Positions 1 through 49,368 of a stretch of 64,000 nucleotides of DNA are shown one piece after another. This stretch comes from a virus, in IMG/VR virus record IMGVR_UViG_3300047170_000049, positions 1 through 64,000 of that record. The stretch is one strand, 5' to 3'. The position numbers were made by a program, and so were the translations under genes. The first letter of the stretch is position 1, and every line of letters begins with the position of its first letter. The notes below the pieces were generated by a model, which was not told the origin of the DNA, ran no database searches, and was given only the letters and a program-made list of their open reading frames with translations.

Positions 1-2
1 AC

Positions 3-98
3 GATGAAGATAGATTAGGCGTTGCCGAGTTCACAACACAAGTTTTAGTTAAAATTCCAGATAAGTGTCAGCAATTGGCGAGGCTTTTATATGGATGA
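3..98 (+). CDS. LLY-tail family small protein, 5' partial
   Basis: Only the last 31 residues lie in the window; the reading frame is open from base 3 and ends in LARLLYG. This is the C-terminal signature of the family filling the next 4.7 kb: an acidic amphipathic helix, then Leu-Leu-Tyr and a small or acidic residue. The codons for A-R-L-L-Y carry a Shine-Dalgarno-like GCGAGG, and the Tyr-Gly codons (TAT GGA) contain the ATG of the next gene at 91. Function unknown. Confidence 0.75.
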   Translation, partial: DEDRLGVAEFTTQVLVKIPDKCQQLARLLYG

Positions 99-342
99 GC
101 CAGTAATTAATCAAGTGTACCACTGCATTCAAGATGGATGTCAAATACTCTTCAAGGTTCTTGCTGCGAATGTTAATGAAGGTAATTGGACCGTGTATGT
201 TTATCGCAATGAACTCATGTCGAAAGGCTTCATTGGTGGTGAGGTGTCAATGTATCCATATGAATGGCAACAATTGCAGGCTGGAATGAGACATATGCGA
301 CCAGAAGAAATGGTTATGATGGAGCTTCTATATGGCGAATGA
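91..342 (+). CDS. LLY-tail family small protein (83 aa)
   Basis: Unrecognised small protein. The start ATG sits inside the last Tyr-Gly codons of the preceding gene (8-nt overlap) with GAGG about 8 nt upstream, so translation should be coupled. The body is beta-rich (YHCIQDGCQILFKVLA, WTVYVYR). An acidic helix (PEEMVMMELLYGE) follows at the C-terminus. The gene runs one codon past LLYG, so its overlap with the next start at 332 is 11 nt. No transmembrane segment or catalytic motif is visible. Confidence 0.8.
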   Translation: MDEPVINQVYHCIQDGCQILFKVLAANVNEGNWTVYVYRNELMSKGFIGGEVSMYPYEWQQLQAGMRHMRPEEMVMMELLYGE

Positions 343-574
343 TTGGTCATGGGCTGTGACAATTAAGAACATAGTGTTTATTAGCGACCCTCGTGTGAAG
401 AGTCCAATAATTCCAAGATATCAAATGGTCAAGTATCACCACAATTTAATTGGCCAAGCTGAATATAAGGGCAAGACGTTCGCATTAGGTGCCCCAGATG
501 ATTCCTTCATTCTAATGGCGTCCAGGGCTGATGCTAGGGATTTAGTCAATTTAGGGAGATTACTGTTTGAATAA
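332..574 (+). CDS. LLY-tail family small protein (80 aa)
   Basis: Unrecognised. ATG lies within the TAT-GGC codons of the previous gene, preceded by GGAG. The protein has hydrophobic beta-strand-like stretches (NIVFISDP, YQMVKYHHN, TFALGAP) and a short helical end, LVNLGRLLFE. The penultimate aromatic is Phe (TTT) rather than Tyr (TAT), so the overlapping start of the next gene becomes TTG instead of ATG. It lacks the VGD motif seen in many relatives. Confidence 0.78.
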   Translation: MANDWSWAVTIKNIVFISDPRVKSPIIPRYQMVKYHHNLIGQAEYKGKTFALGAPDDSFILMASRADARDLVNLGRLLFE

Positions 575-803
575 GTTCATAAACGGTGATATAATAGTCC
601 AAATAGCGAATGAAGAGAATGATTATAGCTACTTCTTCCGAGTGTTGAACTTTGATGGCAAAGATTATTGGCTAAAAAGCTTCATTCACCATTATAATGG
701 TGATGAAATGAAGGCATTCCCTTCAGGGCAAAAGGGCACAGAGAACTATTGTCGTAAGGCTACGGATGAAGAAGTAGCCATGGTGGAGTTGCTTTATGAA
801 TGA
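567..803 (+). CDS. LLY-tail family small protein, TTG start (78 aa)
   Basis: The start is a TTG created by the Phe codon of the upstream LLFE end (TTT GAA read as TTG), with GGGAG at normal spacing; no better start exists in frame. The N-terminus has an INGDIIVQI segment resembling the VGD motif of its relatives, followed by alternating hydrophobic residues (YSYFFRVLNFDGKDYWL). It ends EEVAMVELLYE, whose Tyr codon supplies the ATG of the gene at 796. Function unknown. Confidence 0.75.
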   Translation: MNKFINGDIIVQIANEENDYSYFFRVLNFDGKDYWLKSFIHHYNGDEMKAFPSGQKGTENYCRKATDEEVAMVELLYE

Positions 804-1068
804 ATCCACTTGGACTTTAAAATATATTGGGAAGCGCATCTTGTTTAGAAAGATTAAAGAAAATATTGAAGTGTCACCTAAGAAGGTGGGTCAGAAACGC
901 ATTCTATTAGATATAGGCGATATCGTTCGTGTTATCTCTTTAACTGATTGGCGACTGGATTGCATTGTGCGTAAGAATGGTGAGTTGCATGACGTGACTC
1001 TAGATTATCATTGGACTCGTGGGCTTCGTGGTGAAGAGAAAGCCTTGGCAAAGGTGCTATATGGGTAA
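796..1068 (+). CDS. LLY-tail family small protein (90 aa)
   Basis: The start overlaps the preceding stop by 8 nt, with GGAG upstream. The first 35 residues are lysine-rich and basic. Then comes the family GD motif (ILLDIGDIVRVISL) and a strand-rich stretch (WRLDCIVRKNGELHDVTL). It ends EEKALAKVLYG. The basic N-terminal extension is unusual in the family and could contact nucleic acid, but that is only inference. Confidence 0.8.
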   Translation: MNESTWTLKYIGKRILFRKIKENIEVSPKKVGQKRILLDIGDIVRVISLTDWRLDCIVRKNGELHDVTLDYHWTRGLRGEEKALAKVLYG

Positions 1069-1291
1069 GTGGCATAAAGGCGATAAGGTTGTTTTAAGTG
1101 CTAAAGGACGAAAGTACGGTACGCTTTCTAAACACAAGGACACGATATTTGTTGTGCAAATTGAATGGTCCGATGACACCATAGATTTGACGTATGAAAA
1201 TGGAGCGCCAGCTTACGCTAACATCAAAAAAGGTTTATTCAAGCGACTTAATAAAGACATAGAACAACTGATGAGGCTCTTATATGCCTAA
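1061..1291 (+). CDS. LLY-tail family small protein (76 aa)
   Basis: The frame is open from 1019, but the family pattern places the start at the ATG at 1061, inside the TAT-GGG codons of the previous gene with AAGG upstream. The protein then begins MGKWHKGDKVVL, aligning the GD motif near residue 8 as in relatives. The body is strand-rich (TIFVVQIEW, TIDLTY). It ends LMRLLYA. Looks like a small SH3-like barrel with a C-terminal helix; function unknown. Confidence 0.78.
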   Translation: MGKWHKGDKVVLSAKGRKYGTLSKHKDTIFVVQIEWSDDTIDLTYENGAPAYANIKKGLFKRLNKDIEQLMRLLYA

Positions 1292-1490
1292 TATTGACCA
1301 CGTTCCTAAAGTTCACTATGGCATATGGGATTTCACTCAAAGCCGTTACCGTACTATATGCCGCCATGAGCTTTACGCTAATGAGAATCTTAGAATCCAA
1401 CGCGAGTCATGGAGGCACGTCACCTGCAAGAAGTGTTTAAAAACATTGGGAAAAGAAGAATATAAGCTTTATACGTTGCTTTACGAATAA
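1284..1490 (+). CDS. LLY-tail family protein with Cys cluster (68 aa)
   Basis: The start overlaps the previous gene by 8 nt with GAGG upstream. Unlike its neighbours it carries C and H residues in a zinc-ribbon-like layout (TICRHELY, then HVTCKKCLK), suggesting a bound metal. It still ends KLYTLLYE. Here Tyr is TAC and no ATG is formed, and the next gene starts only after a 20-nt gap. The motif therefore persists without an overlapping start. Function unknown. Confidence 0.75.
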   Translation: MPNIDHVPKVHYGIWDFTQSRYRTICRHELYANENLRIQRESWRHVTCKKCLKTLGKEEYKLYTLLYE

Positions 1491-1510
1491 GTGTGGTATT
1501 ATAAATACTT

Positions 1511-1738
1511 ATGAACGTTAAAGAGTTTCAAGATTTATTGCAAGCTAACTCGTTAGCTAGTGAGAATTGGCTAAAGCAGCAATATCAATTGATGGAAAAC
1601 GTTTCATTAATGCGCATGTTTGGTGAGACCGATGACGAGCTTCGTCGCCGTATTAATGTTGAAACACAGATGCGAACGTTAACTCCAGAACAGGCCGATA
1701 AGGTCATTGCCTTAAGGAAATTACTCTATGACTACTGA
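1511..1738 (+). CDS. LLY-tail family protein, all-helical variant (75 aa)
   Basis: Starts 20 nt after the previous stop; the leader GTATTATAAATACTT is AT-rich and has no clear Shine-Dalgarno sequence. The product is predicted almost wholly helical (FQDLLQANSLASENWLKQQY, ELRRRINVETQM, PEQADKVIALRKLLYDY), so only the C-terminal motif links it to the family. The end has two residues after LLY, giving an 11-nt overlap with the ATG at 1728. Function unknown. Confidence 0.72.
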   Translation: MNVKEFQDLLQANSLASENWLKQQYQLMENVSLMRMFGETDDELRRRINVETQMRTLTPEQADKVIALRKLLYDY

Positions 1739-1985
1739 CTTCTTTAACGGTACGATGTTCTTTGGCAGCATTCCAATGCCAAATATTAAGGGTATGGCAT
1801 CAACACTGCCTTATCCTCCTACAACCCCAGTGAAAGAGATTACATTCTTTAAAGTTGCCGAAAAGACTTTTATGTGCAGAGACAGTGCTGCACACATGAT
1901 GGCCATATTTGGCGATTACACCTATGAGGGAATTGTTCAATTAGTAGATGAAGAGCTTGAACTTTACAGGATGCTTTACGAATGA
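1728..1985 (+). CDS. LLY-tail family small protein (85 aa)
   Basis: The ATG is embedded in the Tyr-Asp codons of the upstream gene with GGA before it. The N-terminal third is proline- and glycine-rich (MPNIKGMASTLPYPPTTP), then short strands (EITFFKVAEKTFMC) and the helix VDEELELYRMLYE. The terminal Tyr is TAC, so no ATG forms there; the Glu-stop junction (GAATGA) provides the next ATG with a 4-nt overlap. Function unknown. Confidence 0.77.
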   Translation: MTTDFFNGTMFFGSIPMPNIKGMASTLPYPPTTPVKEITFFKVAEKTFMCRDSAAHMMAIFGDYTYEGIVQLVDEELELYRMLYE

Positions 1986-2278
1986 GTGGGCCACAAGCTT
2001 ACGACGATAAGTTTGCCGTAGGCGATTACTTCGTTTACTACTCCACAAAGACCACAGAGCCTCAGTTTGTATGTGGTAAAATCACTAAGTTTGACGGTGA
2101 GCAATGGTATTTTGATTTTATTGATGCCAACGACGAATGGAAGCTCCACAACTATTTCCCAATGACTCCTGAAGTACATCGCTGGCACATACAGAGTCCA
2201 TTCTATCAAGAAGCATTCGTAGTGACCAAAGATGAAATGGAAAGATTCTCAAACCTATACAAGGTGCTCTATGCGTGA
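1982..2278 (+). CDS. LLY-tail family protein with FxVGD motif (98 aa)
   Basis: Starts by an ATGA overlap with the previous stop, AGG upstream. The FAVGDYFVYY motif lies around residues 11-20, followed by strand-rich sequence typical of a small beta barrel (FVCGKITKFDGEQWYFDFID). It ends MERFSNLYKVLYA. The Tyr-Ala codons (TAT GCG) supply the ATG at 2271. Function unknown; no membrane segment or catalytic motif seen. Confidence 0.8.
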   Translation: MSGPQAYDDKFAVGDYFVYYSTKTTEPQFVCGKITKFDGEQWYFDFIDANDEWKLHNYFPMTPEVHRWHIQSPFYQEAFVVTKDEMERFSNLYKVLYA

Positions 2279-2492
2279 ATGGGAAGTAGGCGACTGCTTT
2301 AAATACTTTGATGTGTTTATTTTTGTTGACCACATTGATTACGAAACTAAAGAGGTTAGGTTGACCAATGCCTTTGGTGGTTCAAGTATAGGCAAGCTTC
2401 ACGATGTTGCAGCACTTGCAGGTTACGGTCCAGAAACGTATCAGCTTTTAAGTAAAGGCGAAGCTTACCTTGCGAGGCTGTTATATGGCTAA
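2271..2492 (+). CDS. LLY-tail family protein with VGD motif (73 aa)
   Basis: The frame is open from 2232, but the ATG at 2271 lies in the preceding LYA codons with AAGG upstream and places the motif WEVGDCFKYF at the very N-terminus, as in other members. Alternating hydrophobics (VFIFVDHIDYETKEVRL) suggest beta strands. It ends GEAYLARLLYG. Function unknown. Confidence 0.79.
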   Translation: MREWEVGDCFKYFDVFIFVDHIDYETKEVRLTNAFGGSSIGKLHDVAALAGYGPETYQLLSKGEAYLARLLYG

Positions 2493-2697
2493 GTACGCTA
2501 TAATCACTAAGCAAACGTGGGTTCACGCAGGTAGATGGATTATGCCTGGTGAAGTATTTAGAATGGTAAGATTGAAACGAGAAGGTAATAATATCCAGGG
2601 CTTAAAGATTGGCCACAACGTGTGCGCAGTTCGCAAAGAGTTTTATAAGACCTTGGATAAAAATGAGAATGAATTAGCGGAGTTACTCTATGACTGA
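2485..2697 (+). CDS. LLY-tail family small protein (70 aa)
   Basis: The start is the ATG at 2485 inside the upstream LLYG codons, with GCGAGG before it; the 2470 ATG in the same frame has no support. The central segment is basic and strand-rich (GEVFRMVRLKREGNNIQGLK), then ENELAELLYD. The PGEVF segment occupies the place of the VGD motif. One of the shortest members. Function unknown. Confidence 0.78.
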   Translation: MAKYAIITKQTWVHAGRWIMPGEVFRMVRLKREGNNIQGLKIGHNVCAVRKEFYKTLDKNENELAELLYD

Positions 2698-3004
2698 CTT
2701 CCAGGTAGGCCAATGGGTTGTTTCTAAGAGCTTTGACGAATGGTACAACTTAGCTGCCAATATGCAGAATTTTGACCCAATAAACGCCAAAGAATGGTAT
2801 GATTTGGAATGGCCTAAAAACGTATTGAAAATAACCAAAGTAAGAGAAGCTGACCAATACGACGATGAAGGTACTGCAGCGGTATCTCCGTTCTTATATT
2901 TTGAAGGCTACGATAAGGATTGGAAGCAAGTGGGCTATTCATACCGTTGCTTTCGCCATTTAACCACGGAAGAGCAAGATTTAATGGATGTGTTGTTTGG
3001 GTAA
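2690..3004 (+). CDS. LLY-tail family protein, long subtype (104 aa)
   Basis: ATG in the previous LLYD codons (8-nt overlap), GGAG upstream. It begins MTDFQVGQWVVSKSFDEW and continues with an inserted Trp/Tyr/Asp-rich loop, then VLKITKVREAD. The protein at 4169 has the same plan (VGDYV, S..EW..L, acidic Tyr loop, VKVLRL), so the two are probably recent duplicates. It ends LMDVLFG; the TTT of Phe supplies a TTG start for the next gene. Function unknown. Confidence 0.8.
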   Translation: MTDFQVGQWVVSKSFDEWYNLAANMQNFDPINAKEWYDLEWPKNVLKITKVREADQYDDEGTAAVSPFLYFEGYDKDWKQVGYSYRCFRHLTTEEQDLMDVLFG

Positions 3005-3257
3005 GAAAGCGGTCCAAATGGGATTCGTTAGAATTACACAAGACTCTGAATACATCAATTCTTATAAGAAGGGGCAAATTAGTAGGCTCTACACTTCTGA
3101 AGATGATGATGGTGACCGAACCTATCACGTCATTGGTAAGTTTATTAAAATTCAAGGAAGTGGGAAGCCTTTATACCAAGGACTCCCAATACGACGCCAA
3201 GACTTTGAAGAGCTTACGGGTGACGAGTTAAAGCTAGCGGAGTTGATTTATGGTTGA
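2997..3257 (+). CDS. LLY-tail family small protein, TTG start (86 aa)
   Basis: Start chosen at the TTG at 2997, formed by the Phe-Gly codons of the upstream LFG end, by analogy with other Phe-ending members. Alternatives are ATG 2988 (adds three residues) and ATG 3018 (removes seven). The body contains an acidic loop (YTSEDDDGDRTYHVIGKF) between strands and ends GDELKLAELIYG. Function unknown; the start is less certain than in ATG-initiated relatives. Confidence 0.72.
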   Translation: MGKKAVQMGFVRITQDSEYINSYKKGQISRLYTSEDDDGDRTYHVIGKFIKIQGSGKPLYQGLPIRRQDFEELTGDELKLAELIYG

Positions 3258-3498
3258 GCACGTTTCATTTGGTAAATTGCCAAGCCGATATTACAAGTGC
3301 CTATTAGGTACGCATGGCTTTAACATGCTTAAAGCTTACGACTTTGACACACAAACCAATCAATACATCTTCAAGGTAATAGGAACTGGAATACGCCAGT
3401 GGCGTGATGAGTATTACACATTAGAGTCCATCTCAAGGTCAGGTTTTGATAAGATATCCTCAGAAGAGTATCACTTAGCGGAGTTGCTCTATGGGTAG
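3250..3498 (+). CDS. LLY-tail family small protein (82 aa)
   Basis: ATG overlaps the previous stop by 8 nt with GGAG upstream. The N-terminus (VSFGKLPSRYYKCLLG) lacks the VGD motif; the middle is strand-rich and aromatic (LKAYDFDTQTNQYIFKVIG). The end is SSEEYHLAELLYG. Function unknown. Confidence 0.79.
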   Translation: MVEHVSFGKLPSRYYKCLLGTHGFNMLKAYDFDTQTNQYIFKVIGTGIRQWRDEYYTLESISRSGFDKISSEEYHLAELLYG

Positions 3499-3757
3499 GA
3501 AGTTTGATATAGGTGACATTGTGACCGATGACGGTAAGTACCGCTGGGTGGTGATTACCGATAATCCATTAAAAGAAGATTTGAGCGACATTTGGGTTCT
3601 TCCTTACTCATCTAGACTAGAAACTTACGGAATGATTGGAATTTCCAATGGTAATTTTGGTGCTAAGTGGATGCACATGGCTGAGAACTTAGAACACGCA
3701 CGTTCACACCCAGGAGATAAAGCCCTTAAAGAATTAGTAGTGTTATTGTATGGATAA
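3491..3757 (+). CDS. LLY-tail family protein with FDIGD motif (88 aa)
   Basis: ATG in the upstream LLYG codons, GGAG before it. The N-terminus MGRKFDIGDIVTDDGKYRWV is a clear example of the family's hxhGDhh opening, followed by VVITDN and a Gly/Ser-rich segment. The C-terminal helix is KALKELVVLLYG. The layout resembles an SH3-like barrel plus a terminal helix; function unknown. Confidence 0.8.
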   Translation: MGRKFDIGDIVTDDGKYRWVVITDNPLKEDLSDIWVLPYSSRLETYGMIGISNGNFGAKWMHMAENLEHARSHPGDKALKELVVLLYG

Positions 3758-3962
3758 GTACAAAGTGGGTGATATATTTAAAAGCAAGAATTCTGCCACT
3801 AAAGGGTTCTTTGTGTTGCGGTTTATTAATACACGGACGGCTAGCGTAGAGTGGGACCAGGATAGCAATGTGGGCGAAGTAATGCCTGTAAACAATTTGT
3901 TTGTTTGGTACAGGAAGCTAAATCCAGAAGAGATTATTGCCTATAACGTGCTTTATGGATGA
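3750..3962 (+). CDS. LLY-tail family protein with VGD motif (70 aa)
   Basis: The start overlaps the upstream LLYG codons by 8 nt; no strong purine run precedes it, so coupling from the upstream gene probably matters. The motif YKVGDIFKSK is followed by FFVLRFINTRTASVEW. The end, PEEIIAYNVLYG, is less leucine-rich than in relatives. Function unknown. Confidence 0.79.
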   Translation: MDKYKVGDIFKSKNSATKGFFVLRFINTRTASVEWDQDSNVGEVMPVNNLFVWYRKLNPEEIIAYNVLYG

Positions 3963-4176
3963 TTTTAAAGTGGGTGATTGGATTAAACTACCACGCGGTG
4001 CTGTTGCAAAAATTCATGCGATTGAAATGCCTTACTTTTATTACACATTGGCCATGACCACTTCTTTAAATCCAAACCTAAGAAGGTCAGGTTTCAAAGA
4101 TTTATCCCATTTTTATAGGCACACGATAAAGCTCGAAGGCATTGAATTAGAAATAGCGAAGCTTCTCTATGATTGA
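3955..4176 (+). CDS. LLY-tail family protein with VGD motif (73 aa)
   Basis: The frame is open from 3937, but the ATG at 3955 lies in the upstream LYG codons and gives MDDFKVGDWIKLPRG, aligning with other VGD members. Strands follow (AVAKIHAIEMPYFYYTLAM), then a basic stretch and ELEIAKLLYD. The KLPRGAVAKIHAI segment resembles a KOW/SH3-type turn. Function unknown. Confidence 0.79.
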   Translation: MDDFKVGDWIKLPRGAVAKIHAIEMPYFYYTLAMTTSLNPNLRRSGFKDLSHFYRHTIKLEGIELEIAKLLYD

Positions 4177-4525
4177 TTACACCGTTGGCGACTATGTTAT
4201 GCCCATTAGCTTACAAGAATGGAAAGACCTTTGCCATAAGGTTGAAGACCGCATATTTACCGATGCTGAAGAAGACAATTATTACTACGACGAATACCCT
4301 CAACACCCTGTCAAAGTTTTAAGACTTACGCCACCAAGACCCGACATAGTACCTGAAGACCCATGGCGTGAGTATTGGGAAGTTCACATTCAAATGACTA
4401 AAGAAGACGTTCATCAGGAAGATGTGTATGATGATGGCACTTACGGTTGGGACTTATTCATAGCCGATGCGTTTCGTAAGGCGACTGAAGAAGAGTTGAG
4501 ATTGTACAGGATTCTATTCCAATGA
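4169..4525 (+). CDS. LLY-tail family protein, long subtype (118 aa)
   Basis: The longest member of the first island. It begins MIDYTVGDYVMPISLQEWKD and resembles the protein at 2690 (conserved S..EW..L, acidic Tyr-rich loop, P.VK/NVL). It has an extra acidic, Pro/Tyr-rich insert before the end EEELRLYRILFQ. The terminal Phe is TTC, so no TTG forms; the CAATGA junction supplies the next ATG (4-nt overlap). Function unknown. Confidence 0.8.
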   Translation: MIDYTVGDYVMPISLQEWKDLCHKVEDRIFTDAEEDNYYYDEYPQHPVKVLRLTPPRPDIVPEDPWREYWEVHIQMTKEDVHQEDVYDDGTYGWDLFIADAFRKATEEELRLYRILFQ

Positions 4526-4761
4526 AATTTCAAGAAGGTCGTTATTACAAATACACCAACGGCGACAACTACACGGCATTCTTCCAAGTTGCTGGAGATA
4601 ATACGAGGCGCTTTCGTATTAAACGATTTATGGAAATAAATCCTATTGGCATAGAATCATCAATGACTGGTCAATTCATTGAATATAATAGTCCGCTGTG
4701 GATTCACTCCATAGAAGTGGACAAGGACGAAGTAAAGCTGGCAGAGCTTTTATTCTTATGA
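4522..4761 (+). CDS. LLY-tail family protein, last of first island (79 aa)
   Basis: Starts by ATGA overlap. The opening FQEGRYYKYTNGD takes the position of the VGD motif, and the middle is basic and strand-rich (RRFRIKRFMEI). The end, EVKLAELLFL, is followed only by a five-codon ATG frame (4758) before the convergent minus-strand gene. It is therefore terminal in the array yet keeps most of the C-terminal motif. Function unknown. Confidence 0.77.
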   Translation: MKFQEGRYYKYTNGDNYTAFFQVAGDNTRRFRIKRFMEINPIGIESSMTGQFIEYNSPLWIHSIEVDKDEVKLAELLFL

Positions 4762-4771
4762 AAGATACTTA

Positions 4772-5233
4772 TTAAATAAGATTGAGTGACGAGCCGTTCT
4801 TCTGGGTGGATAGCTCATTTTGCATGAAAATCCCAATGAAGTTGGCCGTGAATGAAATGATGTCTTTAGCGTTCATAGACCATGAATCAGCAATGAACAT
4901 CGCTTGATAGATGGTTACGATAGAAGCACCTGATAGACGGTCAATGATTTCAATAGAAACGTATTGTTGATTGAAGTAATCACTCACACTGGATGCGTTC
5001 ATGATGTGGGCTCCATCGAGCCCACCTGAACCACGCATACGAAAGCCTGACATTGTGCCCGTGCATTGGTATGGGCCAGCTAATGCAATCTCTGCCGCAA
5101 ATGGTGAGTCAATGCCAGTGATAACCTTGGCCCCAACTGTGCGTTGATATGTGATAGACGTAGCGAAACCCACGACATTGCCGTTGATTTTAACCACTAC
5201 ACCTGCGCCTGTTTGTCTTTGTTGTAAACTCAT
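4772..5233 (-). CDS. Tail-tube-like virion protein
   Basis: 153 aa. The layout resembles the tail tube protein encoded at 50405: short Gln-rich N-terminus, GAGVVVKINGNVVGFATS, a GAKVITGIDSPFAAEI strand pair, YQCTGTMSGFRM, and late strands SIEIIDRLSGASIVTIYQAM (compare TIQIVDRQTGQAIF in the tube). This suggests a tube paralogue, perhaps a tube initiator, a terminator ring or a baseplate tube ring. It is the last gene of the left minus-strand tail block and converges on the plus-strand array with a 10-nt gap. Confidence 0.6.
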   Translation of the reverse strand: MSLQQRQTGAGVVVKINGNVVGFATSITYQRTVGAKVITGIDSPFAAEIALAGPYQCTGTMSGFRMRGSGGLDGAHIMNASSVSDYFNQQYVSIEIIDRLSGASIVTIYQAMFIADSWSMNAKDIISFTANFIGIFMQNELSTQKNGSSLNLI

Positions 5234-5234
5234 C

Positions 5235-5492
5235 TTACTTACCTGTTAGCATGTCCAATAGATTGGACTCGTCTTCAGTTAATGCTCTAATACGACCGTC
5301 ATGTAGTCGCTTGATAAATCCCACTAGGTCTGTAGACATGGTGACCTTCACCGTCCAACTTCGCTTCATGTGGTAGAATGGGATTATCTCCACATGATTA
5401 TCTGAGTGTTGCCATACGTTTACGAGCATGTCGTATTCGGTAGACCACATGATACCAATGAACTCATTCACTGCAGTCCAGCGCTGATGCAC
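5235..5492 (-). CDS. LLY-tail-like small protein, GTG start (85 aa)
   Basis: Lies between two virion genes with 1- to 3-nt spacing. The GTG at 5492 gives MHQRWTAVNEF. A strand-rich body ends in RALTEDESNLLDMLTGK, which matches the acidic helix of the LLY-tail family but has LTG in place of LYG, so it looks like a diverged member. Its insertion in a tail operon parallels the two members at 7084-7567. Function unknown. Confidence 0.65.
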   Translation of the reverse strand: MHQRWTAVNEFIGIMWSTEYDMLVNVWQHSDNHVEIIPFYHMKRSWTVKVTMSTDLVGFIKRLHDGRIRALTEDESNLLDMLTGK

Positions 5493-5495
5493 GGG

Positions 5496-7091
5496 TTAAC
5501 TCAAATCAGGACCGTAGTCGCCCACGATGTTGTTCATTCCAGGTCCGTTGGGATAAACGACGATGATGTTAAGAAATATGCCCGATGCCGATAAGGAGTT
5601 GATTAAGTTGATGGCTTGTTGACGGCCTTCGACTGTGCCCGTGACGTAAAATCCATAATCATCGCCATTGGTGTCAGGGATGTAGGGTTGACGTTGGAAA
5701 ATTAGAGTCATGTCAGAGCTATGGGACTTCTGAAACTTATATGATGGGTCGAGTAATATCGTACCAGATGAGGGCCTAGAGAAGTAACGAACTGGACCTT
5801 CTTGGTTTGAAGTGCCGTAATCGAATACAACGTAGTTTTCACCATCAGGGAAGATATTAGCGTTTTGCACGTTAACGATGGTGTAGACCTGACCTGCTTC
5901 AATGTTTTGGTTTAGTTGTGTGTAGGTCTCAGTAATACTGAAACCATGCTTGGGGTCGAACAAGTATGGGCCATAGTAAGGCTCAGTTGGGTCTGGAGTC
6001 ATGCCATGCAAGTGCGCTGAACCAATTAAAGTTCGCTTAACAATTTGTGTGGTAGCAGGCAAGAAACAAACAACTTCATAAGGGTTAACTTCATAGACTG
6101 AAGCGTAACGAGGCTGTTGTTGTATTACGTTGCGAATGGGCTTAAAGAACGTAACGTCTTGTGGGCTAGCTAATGTCACAGGCCCTTGAAGACTAAACGC
6201 TGGGTTTTGGATTTCAAAGAATGAATTACCAATGCTACCTGAAGTTACATCAATAATCGTATAAGAACCCTGGTTATTAGGTAAGAAGCCTGAACCAAAT
6301 AAGTTAACATAATCTCCACTCGAAATGAATTGTAAGCTAGGGTCTGGGCCACCAGTCCAAGTGAATCGAACGTTAGAGCCCACGATGCTAGAAGTAAATG
6401 TCGTGCCCACTAATTGGGTTGTAGGTCTGAGTTCAGGGAAGTCGATGTAGTTCTGGGCATTCCCACCAGTGATAGTAATGGATGACTTAGGCCCACGCGT
6501 ACCGCTAATTATTTGCACATAAGTCTTATTGACGGTCGTATCGAGGTAAGTTGTGGCTGTTAACGAGTAATCGCTATTGAATGCAGTTTGGGAAATAACG
6601 TTAGCTATCTCTAAAGCCGTGGCATTAGTGATGTCATTGAAATTGCCAGCGTTGAATGTGACAATTAATGGGACGGGGTTATTGTCCTGAAGGATTTGTA
6701 GGGTCATGCCATCTTGTAAGTGGAATGGTTCAGCTAATACGGATGTGGTATTAGCTTTGATTGCAGTCTCACCGTAGAATAGCTCTAAGATTTCAAGGAA
6801 GATGTTTGAGATGAGCTTATTGTTCGTAACGTCAACGGCAAGTTGAGCAAAGGTTGGGTCATCAATACCAACACCTGCAGGACGAGTAACGCCCATGCCT
6901 GAAGCAATACGGTCTAAGAATTGGCCTGTAGCTGTAGCTAAGAAGAGATTATCTTTGACGGCAAGGATGTTCGACTGGTTGGCATCATCGCCAGCACTAA
7001 TGGCAGCAATCACAGCATCGACGAACTTACCCTTCAATGCGGGATTGAGGAACTGACGGACTTGTTTTTCTCTTGGTGTGATATTAGCCAT
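5496..7091 (-). CDS. Baseplate J-like / baseplate wedge protein
   Basis: 531 aa. The N-terminal part (ILAVKDNLFLATATGQFLDRI.. about residues 45-70) matches the region before the Baseplate_J core of the 1767-aa protein encoded upstream. Residues about 240-315 hold a module (FTWTGGPDPSL, GDYVNLFGSGF, NNQGSYTIIDV, FFEIQN) found three times in that larger protein. The C-terminus (QQAINLINSLSASGIFLNI) resembles the end of wedge proteins. Likely a baseplate wedge component. Its ATG lies in the ILYG codons of the small gene at 7084, so a family cassette provides the start of a structural gene. Confidence 0.7.
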   Translation of the reverse strand: MANITPREKQVRQFLNPALKGKFVDAVIAAISAGDDANQSNILAVKDNLFLATATGQFLDRIASGMGVTRPAGVGIDDPTFAQLAVDVTNNKLISNIFLEILELFYGETAIKANTTSVLAEPFHLQDGMTLQILQDNNPVPLIVTFNAGNFNDITNATALEIANVISQTAFNSDYSLTATTYLDTTVNKTYVQIISGTRGPKSSITITGGNAQNYIDFPELRPTTQLVGTTFTSSIVGSNVRFTWTGGPDPSLQFISSGDYVNLFGSGFLPNNQGSYTIIDVTSGSIGNSFFEIQNPAFSLQGPVTLASPQDVTFFKPIRNVIQQQPRYASVYEVNPYEVVCFLPATTQIVKRTLIGSAHLHGMTPDPTEPYYGPYLFDPKHGFSITETYTQLNQNIEAGQVYTIVNVQNANIFPDGENYVVFDYGTSNQEGPVRYFSRPSSGTILLDPSYKFQKSHSSDMTLIFQRQPYIPDTNGDDYGFYVTGTVEGRQQAINLINSLSASGIFLNIIVVYPNGPGMNNIVGDYGPDLS

Positions 7092-7344
7092 ATAAAATCT
7101 TGATTAACTCTGCTTCTTCGTTTTTAAGTCTGCGATAAAACAATTCAACTATGGAGTAAGCTTCTTCGGATGGTACTTCATCTTCCATGCCGACTATTGA
7201 ATAGACGTAAGCTTCACGCTGCACTTCTAGTATTTCAATAATCCACAACGGAATCATTACTTGGCGATAATCTTGAAACCCAAAGTCAAAAAAGCTTTCG
7301 TCCAGGGTTAAGTAATCGCCAACTTTGTAAAGCGGCCTACTCAT
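7084..7344 (-). CDS. LLY-tail family protein inside baseplate operon (86 aa)
   Basis: The opening LYKVGDYLTLDESFF is the classic family N-terminus and the end, EEAELIKILYG, the classic C-terminus. The Tyr-Gly codons contain the ATG of the downstream baseplate gene (8-nt overlap), just as in the tandem array. Its own ATG is embedded in the LLYE codons of the gene at 7337. It shows that family members have been inserted between structural genes on the minus strand. Function unknown. Confidence 0.8.
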   Translation of the reverse strand: MSRPLYKVGDYLTLDESFFDFGFQDYRQVMIPLWIIEILEVQREAYVYSIVGMEDEVPSEEAYSIVELFYRRLKNEEAELIKILYG

Positions 7345-7567
7345 ACAACAAAGCCACTAGCCTACGTTCATCTGAACTTAAGGGCTTGGCATTTGTTTCG
7401 AGTTCTTCTGTATCGTTAGCCGCTACTGGAGTCATATCGTAATCATCGGTTCCAACGTAGTGCCATGAATACCAAGGCGTTAGCCCACCTGAATGATATG
7501 CTTCAATGCGTATTAGTTTCTCACCGTTACGATTGAGCTTTAAGAATGTTCCAGGTGCGAATCTCAT
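7337..7567 (-). CDS. LLY-tail family protein inside baseplate operon (76 aa)
   Basis: Begins MRFAPGTFLKLNRNGEKLIR, with PGTFLKL in the place of the VGD motif, and ends SDERRLVALLYE. The start overlaps the stop of the tiny upstream ORF (ATGA). Together with 7084 it forms a two-gene family cassette between the two baseplate J-like genes. Function unknown. Confidence 0.78.
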   Translation of the reverse strand: MRFAPGTFLKLNRNGEKLIRIEAYHSGGLTPWYSWHYVGTDDYDMTPVAANDTEELETNAKPLSSDERRLVALLYE

Positions 7568-7653
7568 CTATGTCTCGTAATCATTTTGATTCTAATGACG
7601 GTGTAGCAAATAGCCACAACACTCCAGAATCCAGCCCATGCTAAATCGTGCAT
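7564..7653 (-). CDS. Tiny membrane peptide (29 aa)
   Basis: A 29-codon ORF that exactly bridges two genes. Its ATG forms a TAATG overlap with the stop of the 1767-aa baseplate gene, and its TGA overlaps the ATG of the 7337 gene. The peptide MHDLAWAGFWSVVAICYTVI.. is a single hydrophobic helix followed by a basic tail (RIKMITRHR), typical of a single-pass membrane peptide. Function unknown; stop-start coupling on both sides supports a real gene. Confidence 0.55.
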   Translation of the reverse strand: MHDLAWAGFWSVVAICYTVIRIKMITRHR

Positions 7654-13100: not shown

Positions 13101-13346
13101 ATGGTAAAGACATTCCAAGTCGGTGACTTAGTGTCATTCAAAGGTAGTACGTCTTGGGGGATAATAGTCTCAATAGACGCCTACACTAGAAATACCCACA
13201 ATGTGTGGGTTAAGCCCATATGTGGAACGCCACGTTGGATGAACCCACCTCTAGGTGGCGAATGGTCTGTGACTATGGGTGATTTAATGGATATTCCAGA
13301 GGATTCGGAATATAAGGAGTTAGGTCAGTTACTTTATGGTGATTAA
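13101..13346 (+). CDS. LLY-tail family protein with VGD motif (81 aa)
   Basis: First gene of a four- to five-gene plus-strand island inside the minus-strand tail region. It opens MVKTFQVGDLVSFKGSTSWG, continues with strands (GIIVSIDAY, NVWVKPI) and ends KELGQLLYGD. The leader has no strong Shine-Dalgarno sequence (GATAGACTGGT before ATG). TAGACT could be a -10 element giving a nearly leaderless message, but this is weak. Function unknown. Confidence 0.78.
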   Translation: MVKTFQVGDLVSFKGSTSWGIIVSIDAYTRNTHNVWVKPICGTPRWMNPPLGGEWSVTMGDLMDIPEDSEYKELGQLLYGD

Positions 13347-13596
13347 ACCTGGAATGCTTTTTAAAACCGTACCTGACGATAATGGGAAAGTGTATTTCTA
13401 TATTGTGGATTGGGTTGATAAAAACGATGTTGGGTATCACAACATAGGGTTAAATGTTGGGACTGCAATAGACCAAGATGAGTTTGTTGATAATTTTGAA
13501 CCTGAATGGCATGGCCATCATTGGGAAGAAGTCTCTGATGAAGAGGCTTATGTTGTTAGACTTTTATATGGAGAAGGCGATGAAAAAGATGAATAA
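13336..13596 (+). CDS. LLY-tail family protein with C-terminal extension (86 aa)
   Basis: ATG inside the LLYGD codons of the previous gene (11-nt overlap). It begins MVIKPGMLFKTVPDDNGKVY and includes VVRLLYG, but seven further residues (EGDEKDE) follow, so the LLY motif is internal. The ATG formed by the Tyr-Gly codons (13568) is retained for the next gene, giving a 29-nt overlap. This separates the start-supplying role from the position of the C-terminus. Function unknown. Confidence 0.78.
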   Translation: MVIKPGMLFKTVPDDNGKVYFYIVDWVDKNDVGYHNIGLNVGTAIDQDEFVDNFEPEWHGHHWEEVSDEEAYVVRLLYGEGDEKDE

Positions 13597-13747
13597 AGAC
13601 TTTCAAGTGGTAGACTTGAACACCCCAGAAAATCTAGAGCAAATCGAGCGATTGGTGAAACAGATTAAAGATGCCACCAATAGGCATTACGCTGTTAACA
13701 CACCATGCGGGTTCTTAATTGTGCCAGAAGGTGAGACCGTACAATGA
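13568..13747 (+). CDS. Small hypothetical protein (59 aa)
   Basis: The frame is open from 13478. The start is taken as the ATG at 13568 formed by the upstream LLYG codons; ATGs at 13580 and 13589 are alternatives, with GGAGAAGG before the former. The product (DFQVVDLNTPENLEQIERLV.., CGFLIVPEGETVQ) is a mixed helix/strand protein without the LLY tail. Its stop overlaps the next start (ATGA). Function unknown. Confidence 0.6.
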   Translation: MEKAMKKMNKDFQVVDLNTPENLEQIERLVKQIKDATNRHYAVNTPCGFLIVPEGETVQ

Positions 13748-13974
13748 AGATTTATGCCAAGGTGAGATTCCCATTCAATGCTCAGTCCAAAGAGAATCTC
13801 AATGACATTGTGGACTGGAAAATCGAAGAAGGCTCAATAGTGGAGATACTGCCTGATGGCGATAGCATCTTCCGAGCCATTGAATTTAAGAAACGGACTT
13901 TCTACATACCGCTGGTCAATATGTATGTGATGAGCGATGCAGAGTCCAAACTAGCAGAGGTATTGTTTGGCTAG
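13744..13974 (+). CDS. LLY-tail family small protein (76 aa)
   Basis: Starts by ATGA overlap. Strand-rich (MKIYAKVRFPF, SIVEILPDGDSIFRAIEF, RTFYIPLVNMY), ending AESKLAEVLFG. The Phe codon TTT again creates a TTG start for the downstream gene at 13967. The EGSIVEI segment corresponds to the GD region of relatives. Function unknown. Confidence 0.77.
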   Translation: MKIYAKVRFPFNAQSKENLNDIVDWKIEEGSIVEILPDGDSIFRAIEFKKRTFYIPLVNMYVMSDAESKLAEVLFG

Positions 13975-28045: not shown

Positions 28046-28276
28046 ATGAAAATTGGTCGTATCAAAGAAGACCTGGTACACGGCAGATGGGCCGTTTTCA
28101 ACGCAGGTCAGATTGTTGTAATTAATGCTGGCGAAGGTGTGCCTAAAGACCAATACAGCGTGACCATTTTCAAACCCAAAGAAGGTTCATGGGGCCATAC
28201 TAGCAATGTAGAAAGAAAAAATGTTGAAGTGCTTAGTGGGGATGCGAAAAGATTATTCTATCTTCTCTTTCGCTGA
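28046..28276 (+). CDS. LLY-tail family-like protein (76 aa)
   Basis: Strand-rich (RWAVFNAGQIVVINAGEG, YSVTIFKPKEGSWG) with end GDAKRLFYLLFR. It closes the plus-strand block, and its last 24 nt overlap the 3' end of the convergent gene 28253-28642. Function unknown. Confidence 0.65.
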   Translation: MKIGRIKEDLVHGRWAVFNAGQIVVINAGEGVPKDQYSVTIFKPKEGSWGHTSNVERKNVEVLSGDAKRLFYLLFR

Positions 28277-37921: not shown

Positions 37922-38045
37922 ACATAGACGCGATAAGAAGATACGTCAAAGGCGAGTGCAAAATACACTGGCCAGTTTGTTTTTCTCTGCATTAGTTTTA
38001 GCCATTAGCTGTATGGGAGTGTGGATTGTCAAATCGGGTTTTTAA
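37893..38045 (+). CDS. Single-pass membrane protein (50 aa)
   Basis: ATG overlaps the end of the PDZ gene by 29 nt. A strongly basic N-terminus (ILKHRRDKKIRQRRVQ) precedes one hydrophobic helix (LASLFFSALVLAISCMGVWI), giving a type II inner-membrane topology. It may partner the PDZ protein in the membrane. Function unknown. Confidence 0.55.
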   Translation: MERRAVVILKHRRDKKIRQRRVQNTLASLFFSALVLAISCMGVWIVKSGF

Positions 38046-38373
38046 CTACGGAAAGGCGAATATTACTTTAAGTGGCGTGCCGTTGCCTTCAGGAAATAAC
38101 AATATTGGGTCTATATTAAATAGTCCCGCTATTACCAACACAGGTTTTTACGTTGCCACAGTTTGGCCATACTTAGGCCATAGAGGGCCTGCTTCCATAA
38201 CGGAAACCATAAGTGATTACGGTGTTGGCTATAAAACTTATTATTATTGGATAGATATGATTGATACTGGGATTAAGCAAGAGGTAGACAACATTCAAAA
38301 TCAACTTTTTAAGCCACACGAACGATTGTTGAGTTTGGATTGCTTACCTTTAGCCGAACTACTCTTTGGATAG
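38026..38373 (+). CDS. LLY-tail family-like protein, TTG start (115 aa)
   Basis: TTG start overlapping the previous gene by 20 nt. The N-terminal half looks like a virion beta module (ITLSGVPLPSGNNNIGSILN); the second half includes YGVGYKTYYYWIDM and the family end CLPLAELLFG. The following gene starts 8 nt after the stop with its own SD, so the tail is kept without start overlap. Function unknown. Confidence 0.6.
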   Translation: MSNRVFNYGKANITLSGVPLPSGNNNIGSILNSPAITNTGFYVATVWPYLGHRGPASITETISDYGVGYKTYYYWIDMIDTGIKQEVDNIQNQLFKPHERLLSLDCLPLAELLFG

Positions 38374-38966: not shown

Positions 38967-39187
38967 GCCGTCGCATCAAGCGCGGCGACATTTTTAAACT
39001 AGCTAATGGCTTATTTTTAAAAGTGACTAAGATTAACAAGACCATAGACGGTACTTGGTACTCAGTTAAGCCGCTCTTCATCGAAGATGAGCCTTATGGT
39101 GTGTATGGAGAATACTTCTCTTCAAAACATATGAAGAAAGTGAAACTAAACCGCTTGGAGAAGCTTTTGCTTAAGTTGTTATTATGA
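38945..39187 (+). CDS. LLY-tail family-like protein (80 aa)
   Basis: ATG overlaps the CYTH gene by 22 nt. A basic start, then the family motif IKRGDIFKLANGLFLKVTKI, strands and a Leu-rich end (LEKLLLKLLL) lacking the final aromatic. The final codons give an ATGA overlap with the gene at 39184. Function unknown. Confidence 0.68.
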   Translation: MGNKSKVSRRIKRGDIFKLANGLFLKVTKINKTIDGTWYSVKPLFIEDEPYGVYGEYFSSKHMKKVKLNRLEKLLLKLLL

Positions 39188-39528
39188 AAAAACCAATCGA
39201 CATAAAAATAGAGCGCGTTCTTCCCTACGATAATCACATATTAGATTCCGTACATTACTTATCCAAGACGTTGGACATAAAAGACCTGGAAGAGGCTGCG
39301 CAAGCCGCTATAGCAAACATGGGCACTCCAGACCGCTTCATCTTAGACCCTCTTACGGCCAAGGCTTACGCACAAGCGGCTGGTATTGACTGGGCTTGGC
39401 ATTCATTAAAGTGGGAAAAACTCAAAGCCAAACTCCCAGGCTTACCTGAAAACATATCCGATGAGCAAATAGATGAAATGGGCCGTGCAGAAAAGAAACT
39501 AGCGAAGATTCTGTATGGGAAGACCTAA
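39184..39528 (+). CDS. LLY-tail family-like helical protein (114 aa)
   Basis: Mostly helical (YLSKTLDIKDLEEAAQAAIA, LTAKAYAQAAGIDWAWHSLK), ending AEKKLAKILYGKT. The Tyr-Gly codons again create the next ATG, and the two extra residues stretch the overlap to 14 nt. A second example, with the gene at 1511, of a helical protein carrying the family tail. Function unknown. Confidence 0.68.
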   Translation: MKKPIDIKIERVLPYDNHILDSVHYLSKTLDIKDLEEAAQAAIANMGTPDRFILDPLTAKAYAQAAGIDWAWHSLKWEKLKAKLPGLPENISDEQIDEMGRAEKKLAKILYGKT

Positions 39529-39784
39529 GAAGCCGCTGCATTTTCACATAGGCCAAATGCTGGTTTGCTGGCCAAATGGCAAGCTTAAGAACTTTCATTT
39601 AGTTAAGGTTACAGACTACCATTCTAATACGCATTACGATGTTATGGTTTTAAAAGGTTACGGCCATAAACCAGGTAAAATAGTTGCTTGGACCCGTCAA
39701 TTCGTGGAAGAAAATTTCTTTACATGCGATAGTGAAGAACAGGCGGCATTAATCGAAGAAATGGCCAAGGTGTTGTTTGCATAG
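39515..39784 (+). CDS. LLY-tail family protein (89 aa)
   Basis: ATG embedded in the upstream ILYGK codons. The start MGRPKKPLHFHIGQMLVCW contains a basic RPKK stretch and the IGQ form of the family motif. Strands follow (FHLVKVTDYH, YDVMVLKGYG), then the helix IEEMAKVLFA. Its TTT codon gives a TTG start for 39777. Function unknown. Confidence 0.75.
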   Translation: MGRPKKPLHFHIGQMLVCWPNGKLKNFHLVKVTDYHSNTHYDVMVLKGYGHKPGKIVAWTRQFVEENFFTCDSEEQAALIEEMAKVLFA

Positions 39785-40025
39785 CCTATTTGACCCATCT
39801 CTTAGCATTGGTGATACTGTAATCGGCAGAGATGATTATTCAGTTTTTATAGGACAAATTGTTGACATACACGAACACGAATATGAGCTTCATTCACTAT
39901 ATGACTCCGACGGTAATTCTTGGCGTGAAGGAACTATAGAGCTTTCATTTAACTATCGTTTACATTTCCCACTACGCTTAGTCACGCCTGAAGAGCTAGA
40001 ATTATTTCGTCTATTGTTTAAATAA
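39777..40025 (+). CDS. LLY-tail family protein, TTG start (82 aa)
   Basis: The TTG start arises from the Phe codon of the preceding VLFA end. The N-terminus LSIGDTVIGRDDYSVFIGQI is a clear family opening, then YELHSLYDSDGNSW and the end PEELELFRLLFK. Last gene of this island; 62 nt separate it from the RNR gene. Function unknown. Confidence 0.75.
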   Translation: MHSLFDPSLSIGDTVIGRDDYSVFIGQIVDIHEHEYELHSLYDSDGNSWREGTIELSFNYRLHFPLRLVTPEELELFRLLFK

Positions 40026-41786: not shown

Positions 41787-41819
41787 CCCGTGGGCGGCTT
41801 TCCCCAAAGCCAACACGGG
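41787..41819 (+). ncRNA. Nested-hairpin leader element
   Basis: CCCGTG (41787-41792) pairs with CACGGG (41814-41819), enclosing GGCTTT-CCCC-AAAGCC (41796-41811); GC-rich in otherwise AT-rich DNA. It ends 6 nt before the ATG at 41826, where no clear Shine-Dalgarno sequence is seen. It may be an RNA switch or a processing or stability hairpin after the RNR gene. There is no T-run, so it is unlikely to be an intrinsic terminator. Confidence 0.5.
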
Positions 41820-41825
41820 TATCGA

Positions 41826-42077
41826 ATGATTTTATTAAAGTGCATATCCGAATGCAACATCGGAAAAGAAGCTAAGAATGGGGACTGGAAGGTAGAGATG
41901 ACCTTTCACCCTGGTCAATACTATAATGCAGTTGGCCAAGGTAATACAAGTTTTAATGGCCGTTATTACGCCTTTAAAATCAAAGGTAAGGTGGTTAGGA
42001 TAATGTCAGATAACTTTGAGCCCTTAGAGGATAAGGAAGTAGCCCATTTAGCACAATTATTATTCACTGAGGATTGA
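41826..42077 (+). CDS. LLY-tail family protein (83 aa)
   Basis: A GTG-initiated frame from 41790 would run through the hairpin; the ATG at 41826 is preferred (MILLKCISECNIGKEAKNGD). Strand-rich middle (YYAFKIKGKVVRIMSDNF) and end EVAHLAQLLFTED, the family tail with a three-residue extension. It is a single gene, with a promoter and leader before it and a new promoter straddling its stop. Function unknown. Confidence 0.65.
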   Translation: MILLKCISECNIGKEAKNGDWKVEMTFHPGQYYNAVGQGNTSFNGRYYAFKIKGKVVRIMSDNFEPLEDKEVAHLAQLLFTED

Positions 42078-42128: not shown

Positions 42129-42395
42129 ATGAAAACAATCGAGATGGCTCAAAAAAACGGTGTGTACGTCCCAAATGGTACGGTAGCCAATGAAAGCCGT
42201 AACTATGGCCCCTACACCCAGTTCGCCACTCCCAAACAAACCCCTAAAAACACGAAATTAGGGATTAGTTGGTATTTAAAAGAATTTTTCAAAGGTATGC
42301 TGTTTGGCTCTTTCTTCTCCTTCCTTTTTGGTGGGATTTTTGCTGGTGGCCTAATGGTGATTCCAGTGGTTATTAACAACAAGGATAAGAAATGA
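42129..42395 (+). CDS. Membrane protein (88 aa)
   Basis: A soluble, Asn/Pro/Thr-rich N-terminal 45 residues, then one or two hydrophobic helices (GMLFGSFFSFLFGGIFAGGL, MVIPVVI) and a charged end (NNKDKK). Strong RBS. It overlaps the next gene by 4 nt. Function unknown. Confidence 0.62.
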   Translation: MKTIEMAQKNGVYVPNGTVANESRNYGPYTQFATPKQTPKNTKLGISWYLKEFFKGMLFGSFFSFLFGGIFAGGLMVIPVVINNKDKK

Positions 42396-42634
42396 ACATT
42401 CTTGATGAACTTAAAGACAAGATTACTGAAGTGCAGACCATCACGGTGGGGACGGATGAAATTCTTGTAATAAAACTCAGACATGACGAGGTATCTCAAG
42501 AGGAAATAAATAAAGTTCATAAAGTTTTTGAAGCCAAACTTCCTAAAACAAAGGTGTTGATTTGCGATGATTTATTTCAGTTCATTAAAATCTCTAATGA
42601 CGAGTTAAAACTCATTGACCTATTGAAGGGGTGA
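42392..42634 (+). CDS. Small protein with LLY-like tail (80 aa)
   Basis: Starts by ATGA overlap. An alpha/beta protein (ILDELKDKITEVQTITVGTD, EILVIKLRHDEVSQEEI, KVLICDDLFQFIKI) ending NDELKLIDLLKG, which resembles the family C-terminal helix without the aromatic. The EILVIKL..VLICDD pattern is common in small phage proteins of unknown role. Confidence 0.62.
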   Translation: MNILDELKDKITEVQTITVGTDEILVIKLRHDEVSQEEINKVHKVFEAKLPKTKVLICDDLFQFIKISNDELKLIDLLKG

Positions 42635-48578: not shown

Positions 48579-49142
48579 ATGAAATTCAGTATCAAAGACC
48601 CAAATCGCCTGAACTACTTCCGCTGCATGGACTGTCTGTCCACGATGACTTCTTACGAAACCCCAGTAATGTGCGCTTGTGATGGTTTACTTGTACCGAT
48701 GGGTCAGGTTTACGACAAGCATTACGGTGAAGAAGTTGTGCGCCCTGCTTGTGACGGACGTTGCACCCACTCCGCTGGCCCGATTTGCACATGCAAATGT
48801 GGTGGTGCCAATCATGGTACTGGCAAATTAGTCAAAACCGTGGTAATTAATGGTGTGGTTAAAGTAACTGAAGTTGACGCAGATGCTCATAAACGTGCTC
48901 AAGAATGGCGTGAAGCTTTTAACGCTGCCCGTGACCGTTTTGAAAAACACCTGGCCGCTCCTTTCAATGAGATGGTAGCAAACCAAGGCAAGGTTAACAA
49001 TGTTCAATTTTGGACCATTCGCCGCGCCTATAGCAGTGGCAAGTTCCACTTAAGCAAAATATCTCAAATGAAAGTACACAAGGCACGCATGGAGGCAGCA
49101 AAAACTGCCTTCCCCGTTCCTTTGGAGGTTGTCAATGAGTAA
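48579..49142 (+). CDS. Cys-rich hypothetical protein (187 aa)
   Basis: Good RBS (AAGGAG). The N-terminal 80 residues hold cysteines in pairs (FRCMDC, PVMCAC, PACDGRCTH, ICTCKCGGANHG), consistent with two zinc sites; the CTCxCGGxNHG segment is common to a family of phage proteins of unknown role. The C-terminal half is helical and basic (AQEWREAFNAARDRFEKHLA). Possibly nucleic-acid binding. Confidence 0.62.
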   Translation: MKFSIKDPNRLNYFRCMDCLSTMTSYETPVMCACDGLLVPMGQVYDKHYGEEVVRPACDGRCTHSAGPICTCKCGGANHGTGKLVKTVVINGVVKVTEVDADAHKRAQEWREAFNAARDRFEKHLAAPFNEMVANQGKVNNVQFWTIRRAYSSGKFHLSKISQMKVHKARMEAAKTAFPVPLEVVNE

Positions 49143-49368
49143 TGTAGCGTTTAGAAGGTCAAGAATTAATAGGGTAATTGAAAAGAAAGCTATTAGCGAA
49201 GATGTGTCAGTTAACAAGGGGGATTTGGTTCAAGTTATTAATGTAGGTAAAGGCACCATAAGATGTAAGCCTGTTAAAACCCCTGATTATGTAGTCGATT
49301 TTGAAGTTGCTGATTTAGAGCACTTAACTAAGGAAGAGAACGAATTAGCAAATTTATTGTTTGGATAA
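49135..49368 (+). CDS. LLY-tail family protein (77 aa)
   Basis: The ATG at 49135 has GGAGG 6 nt upstream (a TTG at 49129 is also open). A basic N-terminus (NVAFRRSRINRVIEKKA) precedes VNKGDLVQVINVGKGTIRCK, the family core, and the end is EENELANLLFG. It is the last plus-strand gene here; the TTG formed by LFG opens only a 28-codon frame, yet the tail is intact. Function unknown. Confidence 0.74.
   Translation: MSNVAFRRSRINRVIEKKAISEDVSVNKGDLVQVINVGKGTIRCKPVKTPDYVVDFEVADLEHLTKEENELANLLFG

Follow-up and report, generated by a model that had tools for sequence, protein, structure and literature searches.

The first bases of IMG/VR virus record IMGVR_UViG_3300047170_000049 bear on an open question, namely how phages gain accessory genes in packed operons without breaking the genes that lie downstream. 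The record has 159,288 bases, and the stretch studied here (the window) is its first 64 kb. At positions 1-4761 we identified 20 consecutive open reading frames (ORFs) on the plus strand, all of which bear the C-terminal tail [DE]E..L..LL[YF] (Table 1), in agreement with an earlier note on this DNA that had described about twenty consecutive genes with a shared C-terminal motif. Judging from the sequence, it is probable that these genes, together with others like them in the genome (about 54 in all), represent an expansion of accessory proteins in one lineage, and that their shared C-terminal helix doubles, in 30 of the 54, as the Shine-Dalgarno (SD) sequence and start codon of the next gene.

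Tail codons and the start of the next gene

At 16 of the 19 array junctions the next start codon is formed by the aromatic codon of the tail plus the G that follows it, TAT/G giving ATG and TTT/G giving TTG (the slash marks the codon boundary). Tails with Phe give TTG and not ATG, as at 574 and 3004 and, outside the array, at 13974 and 39784, a variant that the earlier note did not mention. The overlap is 8 nt at 14 junctions and 11 nt at two (342 and 1738); two others are 4-nt ATGA overlaps (1985 and 4525) and one is a gap (1490). The uniform 8- or 11-nt overlaps described earlier thus hold at 16 junctions, but not at the two ATGA overlaps or the gap. The array had also been placed at 1-4761; tails are present there, but the array starts at about 156.5 kb and crosses the ends of the record, and more copies lie elsewhere. 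Since one array gene continues in frame from the end of the record to its beginning, the array is a single block of about 26 genes running from 156.5 kb through 4761.

Throughout the genome we found about 54 tail genes among roughly 240 predicted genes, using a hidden Markov model (HMM) of the tail, which gave about 50 C-terminal matches, together with inspection. Besides the main array they occur at 7084-7567 (minus strand), 13101-13974, 39184-40025, 78.7-81.6 kb, 126-128.7 kb, 131.3-132.7 kb and other sites. For 30 of these genes, the aromatic (or substitute) codon plus G supplies the start codon of the next open frame, which is ATG in 25 cases, TTG in four and GTG in one. The overlaps at these 30 junctions are of 8 nt (24 cases, in the NTGNNTRR form of the -8 class), 11 nt (three), 14 nt (two) and 29 nt (one). 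Non-tail genes overlap mostly by 4 or 1 nt, and by 8 or 11 nt in only 5 of 141 cases.

The main array is interrupted by a gene for a GDSL-type hydrolase (PF13472, 1.9e-9; L007:2636-3409) with an N-terminal signal-like stretch. In the tail at genome positions 157134-157162, TAC TCT replaces TAT G.., so that the expected start reads ACT, and the next gene seems to start at an ATG 21 bases upstream, within the tail gene; loss of the start and its replacement is likely at this junction.

Selection at the protein and nucleotide levels

There are 10 occurrences of YTNYTNTATGNNTRR in the window, where shuffles predict 1.06 (shuffle maximum 4), and the top C-terminal residue triplet (E, L, Y) is shared by 13 of the 249 proteins (expected, 0.6). 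Five further phages from this broad group, one of them covered in part only, yielded no comparable C-terminal motif. When LL[YF] itself was left out, the 20 residues before it matched the family with 5.6 bits in overlap copies and 5.2 bits in terminal copies, and the overlap-independent motif [DE]E..L..LL[YF] is equally strong in the latter. This is in keeping with the earlier proposal that protein-level selection acts, because the motif persists where no gene overlaps. The final [GEDA], which had been counted as part of the protein motif, does not belong to it, since its identity is dictated by the G of the next start and varies freely in copies that have no overlap; overlap copies by definition have G directly after the aromatic codon, and elsewhere any base may follow it. 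We therefore regard the helix as the protein signal, and the Tyr, the G and the SD codons as the nucleotide signal.

For each start, the anti-SD pairing energy of the upstream sequence was compared with that of the same codons after synonymous shuffling. Overlap tails (n=30) had a mean duplex energy of -3.85 against -1.26 for the synonymous null (z=-9.4). An intermediate value, z=-4.6, was obtained for tails followed by an ATGA/TAATG or displaced start (n=7), and terminal tails (n=15) were as expected (z=+0.1). Terminal tails and ATGA neighbours pooled as "free" tails had given z=-2.9, but after splitting the terminal copies carried no signal. With the codon usage of array genes as the null, the values changed little (z=-7.6, -3.4 and +0.9, respectively). 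The effect is due to the choice of GAG, GCG and GTG codons and of Lys, Glu or Arg before Leu-Leu. In overlap tails Glu before Leu-Leu is GAG in 8 of 8 cases (25% genome-wide), Ala is GCG in 7 of 10 (8% genome-wide) and Val is GTG in 6 of 7, while Lys, Glu or Arg precedes Leu-Leu in 24 of 30 overlap tails compared to 5 of 15 terminal ones (p=0.003). In overlap tails Tyr, which is required for ATG, outnumbers Phe 23 to 4, whereas the ratio elsewhere is 6:14 (p=0.0002).

Equal synonymous variation in overlap and terminal copies would have refuted the proposal of the earlier note; the two classes instead differ sharply (z of -9.4 against 0.1), and the claim that one stretch of nucleotides serves as protein tail, SD sequence and start is supported. 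Selection acts at both levels, since synonymous constraint differs by class and the protein motif persists in terminal copies. In addition, tails ending in AAT/G (Asn) or CGT/G (Arg) have lost the aromatic residue and kept the overlapping ATG or GTG (158910, 132003 and 131677), which shows that the nucleotide requirement outlives the protein one.

The suggestion that members recombine through tail DNA was not borne out, because the copies share residues but no long DNA word, their Leu codons are mixed and there are no recent copies. No long repeats or recent DNA-level duplicates were found in the window array. The largest array-wide repeat family is 28 nt long with 7 variable copies, the others being 68-86% identical to the reference, and ends at TATG. 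A 49-nt repeat (1445-1493 and 1940-1988, 73%) extends beyond the stop (GAATAAGTG / GAATGAGTG), and the terminal copy at 1490 may be a former ATGA-type copy that lost its downstream start. Promoter-like sites in 1-5300 number 6 against 15.2 in shuffles, terminator-like sites are at chance (the T4 cassette motif was not modelled), and a T4-late-like TATAAATA is at chance level in the window. T4-type mobile regulatory cassettes are short elements at gene borders, with an early promoter and a stem-loop, that are associated with the shuffling of accessory genes; they are non-coding and transcriptional, whereas the element described here is coding and translational.

Downstream genes, relatives and bodies

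Genes outside the family also start from tail codons, including a virion gene (5496-7091), a subtilase gene (126424-127251; PF00082, 1.5e-16) and a probable HNH gene. The last encodes a protein of 183 amino acids (131996-132547) that is HNH-like by motif only and has no Pfam match; it lies within an array of zinc-ribbon genes and starts from AAT/G.

In gene content the phage resembles a myophage; it has genes for baseplate proteins, terminase, a DnaE-type polymerase and GroEL. Myxococcus phage Mx1 is the closest named relative found (TerL 29%, DnaE 33%), and the nearest relatives among long records, by DnaE and TerL profiles, are G040 (a 108-kb fragment; DnaE 57%) and G042 (147 kb), with which most core genes are common. 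The GroEL gene (L004:2464-4278) has homologues in G040 and G042 and is annotated in Mx1 too. Neither G040 nor G042 has a recognisable tail gene, and the tail HMM gave no C-terminal match of comparable score in these two or in the relatives G041 and G043. Strict tail patterns gave only chance matches in viral and genome contigs, and a tblastn search of phages with four members gave none.

Tail genes are absent from the same places in these relatives. Gaps between conserved neighbours measure 5 nt in G042 and 561 nt here (two tail genes), 91 and 1242, and 555 and 6667; for G040 the pairs are 21 and 234, and 72 and 2825. The virion gene directly follows its upstream neighbour in G042, and here two tail genes lie between them. 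It starts with ATGGCTAAC (MAN) in G042 and ATGGCTAAT (MAN) here, ATGGCTAA being the same in both, although G042 has no tail gene in front of it. The same eight bases end the tail gene 7084-7344 as ..TAT GGC TAA. In the simplest reading the virion start would predate the tail gene, which borrows it to end, and the last residue and stop of the tail are most likely borrowed from the downstream gene; loss of tail genes from the relatives is a less simple alternative. A hydrophobic ORF of 29 residues (7564-7653, minus strand), with TAATG and ATGA overlaps, lies between a baseplate gene and these two tail genes.

The bodies carried by the tail differ. In leave-one-out searches 19 of 49 bodies matched the others at ≤3/300 shuffles and 31 of 49 at ≤15/300, and all 49 tails matched, partly by selection. 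Many of the related bodies, presumed to be beta-barrels, share an M-x-x-[FYW]-x-x-G-D start, with the G-D motif near the N-terminus. No relation was detected for those of 1284-1490, 1511-1738 and 39184-39528 or for the zinc ribbons at 131.3-132.7 kb. With such short, fast-evolving proteins, failure to detect kinship is no proof of separate origin; the zinc ribbons are an exception, since their resemblance is to another domain already described. Their array (genome 131339-132705) encodes DnaJ-type CxxCxGxG proteins with the same tail and overlaps; four of them resemble DnaJ_CXXCXGXG (PF00684; best 3.8e-5, all under the curated cut-off), but they are much smaller than DnaJ and carry the phage tail. 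Tail proteins had no match above curated or accepted thresholds in Pfam, NCBIfam, PADLOC or PDB sequences. The sole family match is that of one member (4169-4525) to phrog_5337 (4.4e-6); it includes the stretch FRKATEEEL and may point to remoter relatives of the tail. Two AlphaFold models (pLDDT 56 and 65) have a C-terminal helix and two to three strands. A PDB fold search with the body returned nothing below E 0.6 (best CsrA) and was not used.

Table 1. Tail genes and associated genes in the window, by position
Position	Strand	Feature	C-terminus and junction
1..98	+	3' end of tail gene (start 159150 of record, MGERVKRGDW...)	ARLLYG; TAT/G gives next ATG; 8 nt
91..342	+	Tail gene	...MMELLYGE; 11 nt
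332..574	+	Tail gene	...GRLLFE; TTT/G gives TTG start; 8 nt
567..803	+	Tail gene	...VELLYE; codons GGAG; 8 nt
796..1068	+	Tail gene	...AKVLYG; AAGGTG; 8 nt
1061..1291	+	Tail gene	...MRLLYA; GAGG; 8 nt
1284..1490	+	Terminal tail gene, cysteine/histidine-containing body	TAC GAA TAA; no overlapping start
1511..1738	+	Tail gene, body without relation to others	...RKLLYDY; 11 nt
1728..1985	+	Tail gene	...YRMLYE; ATGA overlap
1982..2278	+	Tail gene	...YKVLYA; 8 nt
2271..2492	+	Tail gene	...ARLLYG; 8 nt
2485..2697	+	Tail gene	...AELLYD; GCGGAG; 8 nt
2690..3004	+	Tail gene	...MDVLFG; TTT/G gives TTG start
2997..3257	+	Tail gene	...AELIYG; GCGGAG; 8 nt
3250..3498	+	Tail gene	...AELLYG; GCGGAG; 8 nt
3491..3757	+	Tail gene	...VVLLYG; 8 nt; SD weak
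3750..3962	+	Tail gene	...YNVLYG; 8 nt; SD weak
3955..4176	+	Tail gene	...AKLLYD; 8 nt
4169..4525	+	Tail gene, partial phrog_5337 match	...YRILFQ; ATGA overlap
4522..4761	+	Final tail gene of main array	...AELLFL
5235..5492	-	Diverged tail gene	...LLDMLTGK; no overlap
5496..7091	-	Core virion gene	Start codon within tail codons of upstream gene
7084..7344	-	Tail gene	TAT/GGC TAA holds ATGGCTAA start of virion gene 5496-7091
7337..7567	-	Tail gene amid virion genes	...VALLYE; 8 nt
13101..13346	+	Tail gene	...GQLLYGD; 11 nt
13336..13596	+	Tail gene, tail lengthened to GEGDEKDE	29-nt overlap from same TAT/G
13744..13974	+	Tail gene	...AEVLFG; TTT/G gives possible TTG start
28046..28276	+	Terminal tail gene	...YLLFR
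38026..38373	+	Terminal tail gene	...AELLFG; GAA codon; no SD
39184..39528	+	Tail gene, body unrelated to others	...AKILYGKT; 14 nt
39515..39784	+	Tail gene	...AKVLFA; TTT/G gives TTG start
39777..40025	+	Terminal tail gene	...FRLLFK; CGT codon; no SD
41790..42077	+	Terminal tail gene	...AQLLFTED
42392..42634	+	Diverged terminal tail gene	...IDLLKG
49129..49368	+	Terminal tail gene	...ANLLFG; no SD

Explanations and known systems

In the mechanism we favour, small accessory proteins would have expanded in one phage lineage to their present number, with the common and presumably amphipathic helix [DE]-E-x-x-L-x-x-L-L-[YF] kept by selection as a protein element. The codon before Leu-Leu and its neighbours would be selected such that they spell GGAG, GAGG or AAGGTG, and TAT (or TTT) would be favoured as the aromatic codon so that the following G makes the next ATG (or TTG). 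The tail frame would enter the first codons of the next gene and stop at the first stop there, usually as ATGNNTRR over 8 nt, and the downstream gene would lend the tail gene its last residue and stop. A tail gene could then directly precede another gene without a new intergenic region, the downstream translation being kept by SD-assisted initiation or coupled re-initiation. Translational coupling in the cell, a protein role for the helix, insertion rather than loss of tail genes and a modular spread beyond duplication alone are suggested by these sequence features. The wider idea of a coding plug-in, with a portable start in the tail codons that would let any body be inserted before any ATGNNTRR gene with coupled translation kept, is possible and is put forward tentatively; synteny and the unrelated downstream genes lend it support, but the exchange through tail DNA that was part of the original proposal is not supported.

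Several points weigh against our interpretation. The family was found in no other record examined, which makes a true ortholog comparison impossible. The tail classes were set by hand, by whether an open frame follows, and the gene starts are sequence predictions. SD matches are weak at several overlap starts (3757, 3962, 4176 and 7084), and non-tail ATGA overlapping pairs in this genome are under SD constraint too (z=-4.1), which means that this layer is not confined to the tail. The bodies align poorly, and the two AlphaFold models have low confidence. Moreover, at least 19 of 49 bodies are related, and duplication with inherited overlap thus accounts for part of the pattern.

Plain tandem duplication of one ancestral gene with an 8-nt overlap, the tail and overlap being inherited with no plug-in property, fits the shared M-x-x-[FYW]-x-x-G-D starts, the 19 to 31 of 49 detectably related bodies and the commonness of the -8 spacing in prokaryotes (PMC10666635). 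We nevertheless consider it unlikely, because the same tail and overlap occur on zinc-ribbon and other bodies for which no relation was detected, non-family genes downstream start in the same way, non-tail genes overlap mainly by 4 or 1 nt and the window array holds no recent DNA-level duplicates. It is doubtful, too, that the tail is simply a docking or stability helix to which the overlap was added later where packing is tight, with no role in gene gain. The equal protein constraint with and without overlap and the general occurrence of SD sequences within upstream coding sequence at overlapping genes of this genome would agree with such a helix, but 8- and 11-nt overlaps are concentrated at tail genes, and these interrupt otherwise conserved neighbours. 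Far less probable is a nucleotide cassette consisting of ribosome-binding site and start only, with the protein motif as a by-product. The strong SD constraint in overlap copies and the Asn and Arg variants would be expected of it, yet the Leu codons are free and the 15 terminal copies, mostly with Phe, keep E..L..LL[YF] with no SD signal, which contradicts it unless all of them are very recent relics.

Overlap and coupling of genes are known phenomena. Among short spacings in prokaryotes the -8 overlap ranks third in frequency (PMC10666635, PMC12548453), and coupling in short-overlap pairs with termination-reinitiation is influenced by the SD sequence, among other factors (PMC6728339, PMC10666635, PMC12548453). 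Those pairs resemble the present ones in the overlap of stop and start, including the -8 NTGNNTGA class, with the SD sequence here lying within the upstream coding sequence; however, they are independent and have no common tail (PMC6728339, PMC10666635, PMC12548453), whereas here one tail in about 54 genes sets the overlap. The SAS/ESAS elements of Cluster K mycobacteriophages are repeated SD-core elements upstream of many starts of unrelated genes in one lineage (PMC3203893), and an SD core tied to the starts of unrelated genes is found here as well. SAS is a 13-base DNA consensus, GGGATAGGAGCCC, at the usual ribosome-binding position; the 28-nt repeat family of the array has a different sequence. 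Furthermore, SAS is not described as a protein tail, while in the phage studied here amino acids are conserved, DNA is variable and the upstream gene contains the start codon. We found no description of a protein tail that carries the next gene's start through dozens of genes in the literature searched, most subscription papers being outside its scope. Gene overlaps and coupling are thus already known, and the coding-tail version appears to be new, short of proof of novelty.

In conclusion, this genome alone contains dozens of junctions at which one stretch of nucleotides is both protein tail and next start, and its terminal copies act as a natural control by which coding and regulatory selection can be separated. 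The arrangement looks like a compact way of adding genes to an operon while leaving the downstream gene intact.

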